Part shown: in pieces, positions 26,253-30,874 of the stretch
How positions within the stretch are numbered: the first letter of the stretch is position 1
Layout: every line of letters begins with the position of its first letter
Source: Limimaricola cinnabarinus
GTDB taxonomy: Bacteria > Pseudomonadota > Alphaproteobacteria > Rhodobacterales > Rhodobacteraceae
Assembly (NCBI RefSeq): GCF_002723615.1
Contig: NZ_KZ304952.1
Span: 62,001-126,000 of the forward strand
DNA: 64,000 nt
Direction of reading: 5' to 3'
Made by a program: the position numbers and the translations under genes
The notes under the pieces: generated by a model
Seen by the model: only the letters and a program-made list of their open reading frames with translations
Database searches by the model: none
Told to the model about the DNA's origin: nothing

Positions 26253-26345
26253 TCATTTATCTTTTTTTCCATTGTCGTCGTTATAAATCGACCTTCTCGT
26301 AGGTTTCCCAGACGGTGGTGGATTGCTAGCCTTATCGTCAGACAT
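26253..26345 (-). CDS. 30-residue hydrophilic peptide gene, unknown
   Basis: A 31-codon frame with AAGGAG six bases before its ATG, an almost ideal ribosome-binding site embedded in the end of the preceding gene. It overlaps that gene's stop by eight bases, so coupled translation is likely. The peptide is polar, with an acidic start (MSDDK), a central NPPPSGKPTRRS segment and a Lys/Asp-rich end. No family is recognised. The excellent ribosome site and overlap argue for a real gene; its short length leaves doubt. Confidence 0.5.
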   Translation of the reverse strand: MSDDKASNPPPSGKPTRRSIYNDDNGKKDK

Positions 26346-26853
26346 TACTTACTCCTTCGAGTATCAGAAAAATCCAAAGCGGCACCTGAAAAACAGCGGC
26401 AAATAACCCTCCTCCTAGTAACCAGCGAACGCGACCAATCTTTCTTTCGTTTTCGTCAAAAAATTCGTCCGCGTCTTTAGCGAGCTTTGCATGTAGGTCT
26501 GGCAACTTGGTTTCTGTCGTAATTGCGTGAAGTATAGCATCTGGGTTTAACTCAAATGTATACTCCCCCCTTCCTACCAAAACTAGGGAGGACAGGATTA
26601 TGGAAACCAGCACCGAGCCAAATATAAGCCAGAATGCCAATGGCAGATGTATACCTTCACCTGCTTTCAAGGCAGAAAATTCTGGATATATTACTCGGAA
26701 GAACGACGCGAATATTGTCGCCACAAGTCCGGTTATTGCTGCACAATACGAAGCTTGATTTCGAAGCGACTTCAAGTCTTCTTTTTGCCCCCGCAGTTGC
26801 GAGTAACTAAGTTCGTAAGCGAACTTAGAGTATTCTGCTTTTAGGTTATCCAT
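26338..26853 (-). CDS. 171-residue three-span membrane protein in A/T-rich insert
   Basis: The codon use and visibly low GC set this gene apart from everything around it, pointing to horizontal acquisition. The first 35 residues are an amphipathic charged stretch ([20 protein letters not shown]). Three hydrophobic helices follow at about residues 37-58, 72-96 and 143-167, with a charged cytosolic segment containing [20 protein letters not shown] between the second and third. This layout recalls small uncharacterised membrane proteins and SLATT/Pycsar-type effectors, but no diagnostic motif is present. The start at 26853 lies inside the end of thyX (13-base overlap). A 30-codon gene overlaps its stop. 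Confidence 0.75.
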
Positions 26854-27749
26854 TGGCTATTAAACTCCCGCCATTCCCTGGCGCTCATCCCCGACGTCTC
26901 CTGAGTCACTTCCTCCCCAGCGAGCATCCGACGCAAGCACTCTACACCGGAAGCTGAAAGCGTCACCCCTCCAAGGCGATACTCCTCGAAGGCGCGGTAG
27001 GCGGCGGGGACCCAGTCCTTGACCATCTCGCAGATCGCGTCCGCATAGACCCGGATCTCGTATTGCGCATGGCTGTCCGCCCGGAGCCGCAGGAAGTGGA
27101 ACAGGTTGTGCAGATCCACCTTCCAGTACCACTGCGTGTAGATGTTGGCGGGCAGGTTCATCCGCGCCAGCTCGCGCGCCACGCCCTGCTGGCCCTCATC
27201 CGAGATCATCTGCTCGTAATGATCATAGGCGCGGTGCGCGTCCTCGCGCAGCCAGTCGAGTACGCGGGCCGATTCCTCCGGGCCAAGCACGTCGCCCCGG
27301 CCCTGGTTGTTCTGGCTCGACTGCGCGGCGAGGTCTTCGGTGCGCGGGATGTAGAACTCCCGGTCGAGGATCGAGTAGCGGGCGGAGTATTCGTTGACGT
27401 TGGCGGTGCGGTGGCGGATCCACTGGCGGGCGACGAAAACGGGCAGCTTCACATGCAGCTTCAGCTCGCACATCTCGAAGGGCGTCGAATGCCAGTGCCG
27501 CATCAGGTAGCGGATCAGCCCCTCGTCGTTCTGCACCGACTTGGTGCCGCGCCCGTAGCTGACGCGCGCCGCCTGGCAGATCGCGGCGTCGTCGCCCATG
27601 TAGTCGATCATCCGCACGAAGCCGTGATCGAGCACGGGCTTCGGGACATAGAGATGCTGCTCCGCCCCTTCGGAGACGGCGCGCAGCGTGGTGCGGGGGG
27701 TGGCGCGCAGATCGGCGATCTCGGCGTCCTGCTCGGGCGTCAGCGGCAT
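26841..27749 (-). CDS. thyX: FAD-dependent thymidylate synthase ThyX
   Basis: A 302-residue flavin-dependent thymidylate synthase, making dTMP from dUMP with methylene-tetrahydrofolate and NADPH. The ThyX motif appears as [14 protein letters not shown], with supporting segments [19 protein letters not shown] and the nucleotide-binding [24 protein letters not shown] lies seven bases before the ATG. No thyA is seen. The last ~30 codons are lower in GC than the rest and run into the A/T-rich insert, so the C-terminus may have been replaced when that segment was acquired. Confidence 0.96.
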
Positions 27750-27904: not shown

Positions 27905-29013
27905 ATGACCCGCCTGCTCTCCACCGCCGCGCTCATGGCCCTGCTTACCGCCTGCGGCGACGGGCAGCCCTTCGTCTTCGATGAGGATGCGGTCGCGCAG
28001 CCCGGCGACGATGCGGGCGATCCGCCGGAGGACGCCTTCGACGACGAGGAGCCCCCGGCCGACGACGAGGGCTTCGAGGGCGATCTCGACGTGCCGCCCG
28101 GCACCGCCTCGCCCTCGCCCGACGCCTCGATCCGGCGGTTCGAGCCGCTGAACGAGACTGGCGGCGGCTTCGTGCGCAGCGTCAGCTACAATGCCGCCGA
28201 GGAAAGCTTCACCGTCGACAACCTCGCCTTCGACGGCATCACCCCCTACCGGCGCGACAGTGGCCTGCCGAGCATGGGCGGCTACGCGGTGTTCGAAAGC
28301 GACGAGACCGTGCGCGACCCCGTGAATGGCGACGAGATCGGCCAGCTCGACTACCGCGCGATCTATGGCGTCAGCCGCAACAGCACCACCGTCGACGGCG
28401 AGCGCATGCCGGTCTCGCGCTTTGCCATCGTGCGCAGCGGCGATTTCGTCGATTACGGCTTCGGCGGCTTTCTCTACGAGCGCAATGGCGGCGTGGAGCT
28501 GCCCGAGCGGCGCGACGGCCAGGCGGTGTTCATCGGCGATTATGCCGGCACGCGGGTCTTTTCGGGCCGCGGCGGGCAGGAGCTGACCGAGGCCGGATGC
28601 AGATCGCGGTGGATTTCACCGATTTCAACGAGTCCGAGGGCGTCGACGGGATGCTCTATGACCGCCGCGCCTATGATGTCGACAGCGGTGAGGAGGTCGA
28701 TGCCACTCAAGGCGGCGTGCGGCGGGAGACGGCCGATGGCGTCTTGCTCGACCTGCCGACCGCGCGCTTCACCCTCGCCACCGGCTCGACCACCGCCGAT
28801 GGCGAGATCCTGGGCAACATCAGCAGCAGCGTCATGGTGGACGGCACCCTCGAGGATTACGAGAGCGGCAGCTATTACGGCATCATCGGCGGCGATCTCG
28901 ACACCGGCGGCGAGGTGGTCGGCGTGCTCGTCATGACCTCGGACGATCCGCGGTATGACGGTGTGACGGCGCAGGAGACCGGCGGCTTCATCCTCTACCG
29001 CGAGGCGCCGTGA
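27905..29013 (+). pseudogene. Slam-linked surface lipoprotein, frameshifted near 28597
   Basis: The gene starts with a lipoprotein signal (MTRLLSTAALMALLTACGDG, lipobox LTAC). An acidic Asp/Glu/Pro linker follows, then a Gly-rich beta-barrel domain resembling the TbpB-type barrel domain of Slam substrates. Near 28586-28597 the frame breaks: the upstream frame runs on to 28936 as non-conserved Arg/Ser/Pro sequence, while the natural continuation (MQIAVDFTDFNESEGVDG to GGFILYREAP) is one base out of frame and ends at 29013. One missing base in GCCGGATG restores a 369-residue protein. No slippery heptamer is visible. The Slam gene starts in a GTGA overlap with the restored stop, which supports a single original gene. 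Confidence 0.75.
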
Positions 29014-30368
29014 GGCTTTTGCGGGCGGCCCTTGCGCCGGTCGCGCTGACGCTCGCGCTGGCCGCGCCGGCCCCGGCCCCGGCGCAGGTGCGGCTCGACG
29101 CGACGGAGCTGCGCTCCGTGGCGGTGGCGCGCATGGCGGCGGGCGATCTGGCGCAGGCCGAGGTGATGGCGCGCGCGCTGCTCGCCCGCGACCCCGACGA
29201 CGCGACCGCGCTCAGCATTTCGGCCGAAGCAGCAACGGCGCGGCGCGACTGGCCTCTTGCGCGCCGCATGGCTGCGCGGGCGCATGGGCGGGTCGAAGGG
29301 CCGGCGCGGTTTCGCATGGCACGGCTCGCGGCCTATGCGCTGGCGCAGGAGGGCCGCTATACCCGCGCGCAGATCTGGCTGCGCCGCGCCGCGCCCGACG
29401 CCCCCGACGCGCGGGCCGAACGCGGCCTCGTGCGCGACTACCGTCTCGTGGCGGCGCGCAACCCGCTCACGCTGTGCTTCGGCCTCGGCATCGCCCCCTC
29501 CTCCAACATCAATGGCGGCAGCCGCGCCGAGACGCTGATCCTGCCCGGCCTGCCCTTCGAGTTCGAGCTGTCGGGCGATGCGCGGGCGCTCTCCGGGGTC
29601 ACGACCACGGCCAGCTTTGACTTGAGCCACGCGCTGCCGCCCCTGCCGACCGGACCGCTGGTCTTCGATCTGCGGGCGAAGGGGCGCGCCCACCGGCTGA
29701 GCGACGCGGCGCGGCGGCAGGCCCCCGAGGCTCGTGGTGCGGATTATGCCCAAGCCGCGCTGAGCCTCGGGCTGCGCCACCGGCTGCGGCAGGCGGGCCT
29801 GCCACCGCTCGATCTTTCGGCCGAGCTGGGGCGCGACTGGTATGGCGGCGCGCCCTATTCGGACCGGCTCGGCCTCGGCCTTTCGCGCCTCATGCCGTTG
29901 GGGGCCGGGCGGAGGCTCTCCTTCGGCGTCACGCTCGACCGTGTCGCGCGGCGCGACATCGACGCGAGCTGGTGGGCCCCTGCCCTGCACGCGGCGCTGC
30001 GCCAGGATCTGGGGGCCGACCGGCTCACCCTCTCGGCGCATCTGCGCGAGACGCGCAGCGACCGGCCCGATACCGGGCATGACGCGCGGGTCGCGCGGCT
30101 CGACTACGACATCGGGCGGCGTGTCGGTCCTGCCCTGCTGGGTTTCGGCATCGAGGCGCAATGGCGCGACTACGACAGTTCGCGCTATGTCCGAGGCGGG
30201 CGCGAGGATCGCAGCCTCGGGATCGAGGCCCGGTTGGGCCTGCCGAAGGCCGGGCGCTATGGCTTCTACCCCGAGATCGGGCTGACGGGGCGCAGGGTCT
30301 GGTCGAATGCCGACCTGTTCGACGCGCAGACGCTGACGCTCGACATCGGGCTGCGCTCCAGCTTCTGA
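29010..30368 (+). CDS. Surface lipoprotein assembly modifier (Slam, DUF560) outer-membrane protein
   Basis: A 452-residue two-part protein: signal peptide (cleavage near APAPAQ), a TPR-like helical domain to about residue 135, and a C-terminal ~320-residue beta-barrel of alternating aromatic strands ending in a terminal Phe (LRSSF), the outer-membrane signature. NPLTLCFGLGIAPSSNINGG opens the barrel as in DUF560 proteins. In Neisseria, Slams deliver lipoproteins to the cell surface. The start is GTG, overlapping the lipoprotein gene's stop as GTGA, so the two form a substrate-exporter pair. Confidence 0.88.
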   Translation: MRLLRAALAPVALTLALAAPAPAPAQVRLDATELRSVAVARMAAGDLAQAEVMARALLARDPDDATALSISAEAATARRDWPLARRMAARAHGRVEGPARFRMARLAAYALAQEGRYTRAQIWLRRAAPDAPDARAERGLVRDYRLVAARNPLTLCFGLGIAPSSNINGGSRAETLILPGLPFEFELSGDARALSGVTTTASFDLSHALPPLPTGPLVFDLRAKGRAHRLSDAARRQAPEARGADYAQAALSLGLRHRLRQAGLPPLDLSAELGRDWYGGAPYSDRLGLGLSRLMPLGAGRRLSFGVTLDRVARRDIDASWWAPALHAALRQDLGADRLTLSAHLRETRSDRPDTGHDARVARLDYDIGRRVGPALLGFGIEAQWRDYDSSRYVRGGREDRSLGIEARLGLPKAGRYGFYPEIGLTGRRVWSNADLFDAQTLTLDIGLRSSF

Positions 30369-30445: not shown

Positions 30446-30874
30446 ATGGCGCTGAAATATCTGCACACCATGGTCCGGGTGAAGGATCTCGAAAAGAGCA
30501 TGGCCTTCTACGAGCTGCTCGGGCTCAGGGAAACGCGCCGCAAGGAAAGCGAAGGCGGCCGCTTCACCCTCGTCTTCATGGCTCCTCCGGGCCAGGAAGA
30601 GTGCCCGGTCGAGCTGACCTGGAACTGGGATGGCGATGATGCGCTGCCCTCGGACAGCCGTCATTTCGGCCATCTCGCCTACAGCGTCGACGACATCTAT
30701 GCCACCTGCCAGCACCTGCAGGACAACGGCGTGACCATCAACCGCCCCCCGCGCGACGGGCACATGGCCTTCGTGCGCTCGCCCGACAACATCTCGATCG
30801 AGTTGCTGCAGGCCGGAGATGCCCTGCCCCCGCAGGAGCCGTGGTCCAGCATGGAGAACACCGGTCACTGGTGA
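30446..30874 (+). CDS. gloA: Lactoylglutathione lyase (glyoxalase I)
   Basis: A 142-residue VOC-fold metalloenzyme that isomerises the methylglyoxal-glutathione adduct to lactoylglutathione. Metal ligands are visible as the His in LHTMVRVKD, the Glu in CPVELTWNW, the His in HFGHLAYSVDD and the Glu in NISIELLQ. Length and motif order fit bacterial GloA. GGGAGAGCCGCA precedes the ATG. It is a single gene closed by a hairpin before the convergent MarR-type gene. Confidence 0.93.
   Translation: MALKYLHTMVRVKDLEKSMAFYELLGLRETRRKESEGGRFTLVFMAPPGQEECPVELTWNWDGDDALPSDSRHFGHLAYSVDDIYATCQHLQDNGVTINRPPRDGHMAFVRSPDNISIELLQAGDALPPQEPWSSMENTGHW

Follow-up and report, generated by a model that had tools for sequence, protein, structure and literature searches.

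A predicted type XI secretion unit of Limimaricola cinnabarinus with a frame-broken cargo lipoprotein gene

The window analyzed in this work was a 64,000-nucleotide stretch of the Limimaricola cinnabarinus genome (RefSeq assembly GCF_002723615.1, contig NZ_KZ304952.1, positions 62,001 to 126,000), in which two adjoining genes at 27905-30368 encode a lipoprotein and an outer membrane protein resembling the cargo and the exporter of the type XI secretion system (T11SS, Slam-type). The cargo gene was confirmed to be broken by a change of frame, and the reading of its C-terminal part is not due to chance. The pair probably represents a T11SS unit whose cargo was inactivated by a single-base deletion, likely through a recent mutation of the sequenced strain. 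A recent loss of function was favoured over a sequence error, and both were placed far above recoding or phase variation.

The cargo gene spans 27905-29013 and starts with ATG at 27905. The lipobox LTAC and the acidic linker after it, which had been described in the first-pass annotation of this DNA, were seen again in the translation. The lipobox cysteine, Cys17, was invariant in 20 aligned relatives, although these had been picked with a lipobox pattern and the invariance is partly a matter of construction. The alignment of DNA with relatives showed that the window lacks one of their bases within 28586-28597, where no homopolymer run is present, and a coding-frame model placed the frame switch at 28596. 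Due to the one base fewer, the last 138 codons of the gene lie in another frame. Frame 0 continues past the break as an unrelated sequence to TGA at 28934-28936; the conserved C part (28597-29013), 88% identical to its counterpart in Limimaricola litoreus and 76% identical to that in an L. cinnabarinus relative, ends with a stop overlapping the GTG start of the exporter gene at 29010 (GTGA). The missing base and the overlapping stop had both been proposed from the letters alone and were borne out. When mapped on the model of the intact L. litoreus orthologue, the break fell within the second strand of the barrel, so the present product of the window gene should not form a barrel. The features of the locus are as follows.

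26841..27749, minus strand: thyX, flavin-dependent thymidylate synthase, syntenic neighbour (PF02511, E 2.3e-57)
27905..27955, plus strand: signal peptide of the cargo with the lipobox LTAC and Cys17 (by eye from the translation)
27905..28594, plus strand: N-terminal part of the cargo in frame 0, with the handle/effector part and the first barrel strand (82% identity to L. litoreus)
28586..28597, plus strand: frame-break interval, inside strand 2 of the predicted eight-stranded barrel (one base fewer than in intact relatives)
28597..29013, plus strand: remaining C-terminal barrel of the cargo, out of frame with the signal peptide (138 codons and the stop)
29010..30368, plus strand: predicted outer membrane exporter of the T11SS/Slam type, 452 aa, with a signal peptide seen by eye (predicted fold, homologues)
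30446..30874, plus strand: gloA-like gene of the glyoxalase/lactoylglutathione lyase family, syntenic neighbour (PF00903, E 3.5e-20)

The exporter was searched for in 61 genomes, 24 of which gave a match, and the two halves of the cargo were searched by separate tblastn runs, a match of the C half being counted at E ≤ 0.01. Both halves were found in a single frame in each of the 11 distinct relatives that passed this cut-off, that is, in 7/7 other genomes of the same genus and in G013, G023, G025 and G027, and their open frames were continuous. At four other loci (L015, L021, L024 and L025), only the N half was matched at E ≤ 0.01, and at each of them the lipoprotein gene before the exporter was in a single frame. 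In 7/7 same-genus relatives, the cargo stop overlapped the script-chosen exporter start by one or four bases. Scanning the collection of named genomes yielded five loci, two from L. litoreus, one from L. cinnabarinus and two from metagenome-assembled Rhodobacteraceae.

This comparison bears on whether the locus holds two separate genes, for a short lipoprotein and for an independent small barrel protein translated from the ATG at 28597. An ATG does begin the C part, and by eye a GAGG ends four bases before it. However, nothing resembling a signal peptide was seen by eye at the start of the C part, the break inside the second strand leaves neither piece with a whole barrel, and the C part is continuous with the N part in 11/11 relatives. 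Such an arrangement is therefore very improbable, and the close relatives, whose frames the first-pass annotation had wished to see compared, hold one gene and not two.

The cause of the break was considered first with regard to an error of sequencing or assembly, under which the strain would have an unbroken cargo and an ordinary working T11SS pair. This is possible, if clearly less probable than a real mutation. It agrees with the draft state of the assembly (67 contigs), with the unbroken gene in all 11 relatives compared, and with the purifying selection to which both cargo parts remain subject, as if nothing had happened. On the other hand, the break site is no homopolymer, and homopolymers are the usual place of indel errors. 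It also stood alone in the contig. The coding-frame model, run over the 282,909-base contig (69% GC), gave 268 coding segments of at least 150 bases, with a switch being flagged if both frames stayed open for more than 60 bases. This break was the only flagged switch in the 283-kb contig, all remaining switches being ordinary passages from gene to gene. Among 240 randomly planted deletions, 108 were found, and the 12 flags raised elsewhere in 12 runs corresponded to the baseline flag alone.

Relative to L. litoreus, the ratio of non-synonymous to synonymous substitution rates (Ka/Ks) was 0.28 in the N part and 0.35 in the C part of the cargo, 0.17 in the part of the exporter compared and 0.10 in thyX. 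The L. litoreus exporter gene is itself cut by contig ends in its assembly (L005 4001-4207 and L001 2-1084). The C part has no stop, and with these ratios there is no clear sign of long decay. Three observations weigh against a recent break that is unique in the contig. The detector found fewer than half of the planted breaks, so other breaks could be missed. The Ka/Ks of the C part relative to L. cinnabarinus was 0.46 for the window and 0.39 for L. litoreus. When the changes of the C part were polarised with L. cinnabarinus, the window branch carried 4 synonymous and 9 non-synonymous ones and the branch to L. litoreus 9 and 8, respectively, a tendency towards relaxed selection that was not significant (Fisher p 0.28). 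An older break visible through relaxed selection on the C part was considered and not retained, as the difference was not significant.

Two further causes had been listed in the first-pass annotation beside recent inactivation and sequence error, and neither held up. Programmed -1 frameshifting at the junction would produce both a short and a full-length lipoprotein, and the long overlap over which both frames are open would leave room for such a slip. Against this, wrong frames are expected to stay open over long stretches at a GC content of 69%. No in-frame X XXY YYZ heptamer was present in 27905-29013, the only slip motif searched for, and the 11 relatives compared use one frame, so that such a device would be a novelty of this strain; frameshifting can hardly be credited. 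Phase-variable on/off switching of the surface protein was judged equally remote. Surface proteins are common targets of phase variation, but no repeat tract is present at the break, the longest homopolymer in 27905-29013 has 5 bases and lies away from it, as does a small number of triplets in three copies, and no frame-changing length difference was seen at the site among the relatives. In literature searches on Slam, phase variation, surface lipoproteins and frameshifts, no title on this cargo gene appeared among the matches listed, and among the titles listed for Limimaricola there was no work on this locus. A recent one-base loss in the sequenced strain thus remained the favoured cause.

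The identification of the two genes as a Slam/T11SS pair is supported by the predicted folds, by family members matching PF04575 and by synteny, export itself being a prediction. This much of the pairing stated in the first-pass annotation was retained. The AlphaFold2 model of the exporter, built with a 23-row alignment, had a mean predicted local distance difference test score (pLDDT) of 90.6 and contained seven helices resembling tetratricopeptide repeats (TPR) at 31-150, followed by 14 long barrel strands at 153-450. In the PDB, it matched TPR domains and barrels of outer membrane proteins, and the TPR-barrel proteins BcsC and PelB ranked among its best Foldseek matches. The proposed architecture of TPR and barrel was upheld in this way, whereas the DUF560 label came by way of homologues: PF04575 (DUF560/SlipAM) matched 15 of the 23 aligned members of the exporter family at E ≤ 0.1 (best 1.9e-10) and missed the other eight, which include that of the window. 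In Pfam and NCBIfam, the window exporter had weak TPR-type matches, none over the cut-off. Of the 39 distinct sequences returned by the PDB sequence search with the exporter profile, most were chains of TPR or designed helical repeats; the best stretches lay within profile positions 10-138, none over the barrel. Three more distant TPR-barrel exporters (L028, L029 and L032, in genomes G022 and G008) possibly belong to another T11SS subfamily; in L028 and L029, the exporter is likewise preceded by a lipoprotein gene, and neither thyX nor gloA was matched nearby.

For the cargo, the model of the intact L. litoreus protein, made with 19 relatives, had a pLDDT of 82.8 and eight C-terminal barrel strands. 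All 22 of its PDB matches at a Foldseek E ≤ 0.001 were TbpB, fHbp or hemophilin-type entries. In the VIA structural comparison, the 50 rows listed were fHbp, hemophilin/haemophore, NHBA, TbpB or HpuA; the best row of the intact cargo was fHbp (Z 14.6, root-mean-square deviation (rmsd) 2.7, 169 aligned), and residues 63-356 aligned with apo-hemophilin (Z 12.8, rmsd 3.8, 201 aligned). Among the 20 aligned cargo relatives, PF01298 (TbpB barrel) was found in two and PF08794 in three at E ≤ 1, with best values of 6.2e-7 and 0.0076, respectively. The PDB sequence search with the cargo profile gave four sequences, of which one was TbpB (E 0.036) and the other three were unrelated. The comparison of the C half with barrels of Slam substrates, as suggested earlier, gave no match of the window pieces to PF01298 or PF08794 and a fold like that of fHbp, hemophilin and TbpB for the intact orthologue.

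A number of results speak against this identification. The window exporter was not listed by PF04575 even at E 10, and no solved Slam structure was among the PDB matches listed for it, so its fold is unmatched in that respect. The pieces of the window cargo were not listed by PF01298 or PF08794, and the L. litoreus orthologue had no match either. The TM-scores of the cargo model were low, 0.19-0.36 by query length among the rows listed, and its 22 best PDB matches had 8-16% identity. In the abstract of PMC12282271, every verified T11SS exporter is assigned to cluster 1, none of cluster 3 having been tested. As the window proteins are not listed by the Pfam models, their membership in the family depends on the homologues and the predicted fold.

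The kind of gene pair described here is already known and the window pair is a further member. A conserved marine cluster 3 T11SS locus of Rhodobacteraceae/Roseobacteraceae was presented in 2025 (PMC12282271, Fig. 8), and it has the same content: thyX, a cargo lipoprotein, a T11SS exporter and a lactoylglutathione lyase gene. Its cargo is a predicted lipoprotein with a C-terminal eight-stranded barrel, as in the intact relatives here. The gene order of the window is thyX, cargo, exporter and gloA, and of the 22 loci that relatives contributed to the exporter alignment, all 22 had a match to gloA beside the exporter and 19 a match to thyX, no thyX match being present in the fetched flank of L016, L018 and L025. 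The likeness to the published locus is drawn from gene order, the sequence-similarity cluster being unassigned. The window locus differs in its broken cargo frame and in the lack of DUF1194, of which each of the 11 printed loci has at least one; in the published counts this domain occurs in 102/145 loci and is common, not universal. DUF1194 (PF06707) was not found at the window locus, which lies on contig C2, and its only match in the genome was on contig C6 (135760-136344, L033). The earlier remark that substrates in alphaproteobacteria are poorly described needs revision with regard to this published locus, and holds insofar as the verified exporters, by the same abstract, all belong to another cluster. 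Between thyX and a cold-shock-domain gene, the window also contains a 171-aa frame on the minus strand (26341-26853), with no Pfam match at E ≤ 0.001.

The locus shares the exporter/cargo architecture, the adjacency of the genes and, for the intact cargo model, the TbpB/fHbp-like fold with Slam1/TbpB and other Slam-dependent surface lipoproteins of Neisseria (PMC5449769, PMC9090332). In contrast to these systems as described there, the cargo model has a single barrel, and no transferrin or heme receptor was recognized among the seven neighbouring genes scanned, one of which was matchless. The window proteins are also too diverged from Neisseria-type Slam and cargo for the Pfam models to list them. 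The Slam-dependent hemophilin of Acinetobacter baumannii (PMC8560813) has a similar fold over the residues of the intact cargo given above; unlike it, the cargo here has a lipobox.

The pairing of cargo and exporter was further examined in 198 genomes drawn evenly from the family, with a profile cut-off of E ≤ 0.001. The cargo profile matched 97 and the exporter profile 122 of them. Strong exporter places, defined by E ≤ 1.9e-60, numbered 100 in 95 genomes, and a cargo was located directly upstream on the same strand at 90 of these places, in 90/95 genomes. After leaving out this genome (G000) and the 14 source genomes of the cargo alignment (a subtraction made by hand), the pairing was seen in 75/80 genomes. 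Five of the ten unpaired places were extra places or pieces in genomes paired elsewhere (G159 twice, G163, G189 and G193), and the other five were in genomes without a pair (G091, G092, G110, G170 and G210). In G091 and G092, cargo-profile matches were present on other contigs, and the exporter place of G210 begins 143 bases from a contig end.

The domain counts of PMC12282271 put barrel cargo with marine cluster 3 exporters rarely, in 8/145 loci. The structural look reported there found cargo in 10/11 loci, and similarity below the threshold is named as one possible reason for the rare pairing. The published 8/145 is probably too low because the domain model misses these cargo proteins. Judging by the profile matches, the pairing looks like the rule, and its reported rarity probably reflects the sensitivity of the model.

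Damaged cargo genes were also met in the family sample. The cargo match was split in place in this genome. In G220 (C28:26891-27900, L093), the last 28 profile positions were matched in another frame with E 0.0079, an apparent break near the end of the gene. The cargo of G214 (C1:1073137-1074075, L094) contained one internal TAG with both parts in the same frame, and a second, partial cargo copy with TAA was present in G162. The cargo genes of G131 and G211 were cut by contig ends, with no second piece in G211, and no second cargo piece was found for the partial matches of G020, G112, G145 and G175. The idea that this genome has the sole split cargo of the sample was rejected because of the probable second case in G220. 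As judged from these matches, a damaged cargo beside an exporter is rare and not unique to this genome, with three cases (G000, G214 and G220) in 90. The G220 case, though a single weak match, fits an occasional real loss. Among the exporter genes of the sample, one had an internal TGA (G069 C11:930320-931702) and two were split into two frames (G190 C108:4801-6116, L095, and G185 C140:3522-4743). No cargo match was found in the 4 kb surrounding the split exporter of G190, and the contig of G185 ends at the split exporter, so that the cargo there cannot be judged.

In the Neisseria systems, unfolded TbpB was described as passing through Slam1, assisted by the chaperone Skp (PMC9090332). For T11SS cargo, it was proposed that the C-terminal eight-stranded barrel targets secretion, with the N terminus as the effector (PMC8406197). 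Genes of the OmpH/Skp family and LolA are present in this genome. By analogy, an intact cargo would pass through the Sec and lipoprotein pathways to the outer membrane and then reach the surface via the adjoining barrel protein, and, going by known Slam/T11SS systems, its C-terminal barrel would bear the export address and its N-terminal half would be the working part. The broken product would keep the lipid anchor with only the first and part of the second barrel strand, and such a truncated cargo should not be exported but be stuck or degraded in the periplasm. The translation of the exporter may fall as well, because the frame-0 stop lies 73 bases before the exporter start, whereas the stop of an unbroken cargo would overlap it.

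At E ≤ 10, the cargo profile matched nothing in the genome apart from the halves of the broken gene itself. PF01298 gave no genomic match at E ≤ 1, in a scan in which 2/14 controls were matched and none over the cut-off, and PF04575 gave no match across the genome in a scan where the controls gave none either. As no other cargo-like gene was found, the exporter, whose own gene is intact, would be without known cargo. That the break is real and fixed in the lineage, with the exporter still intact and under selection as a natural cargo-less T11SS exporter, appears unlikely.

The break as such is of interest for the strain alone, and the pair matters slightly more. The pairing count by family profiles is a modest addition, which offers a choice of intact pairs, e.g., from L. 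cinnabarinus. If a cargo-less exporter did prove true, it would suggest that the marine exporters of this group act beyond carrying the neighbouring lipoprotein.

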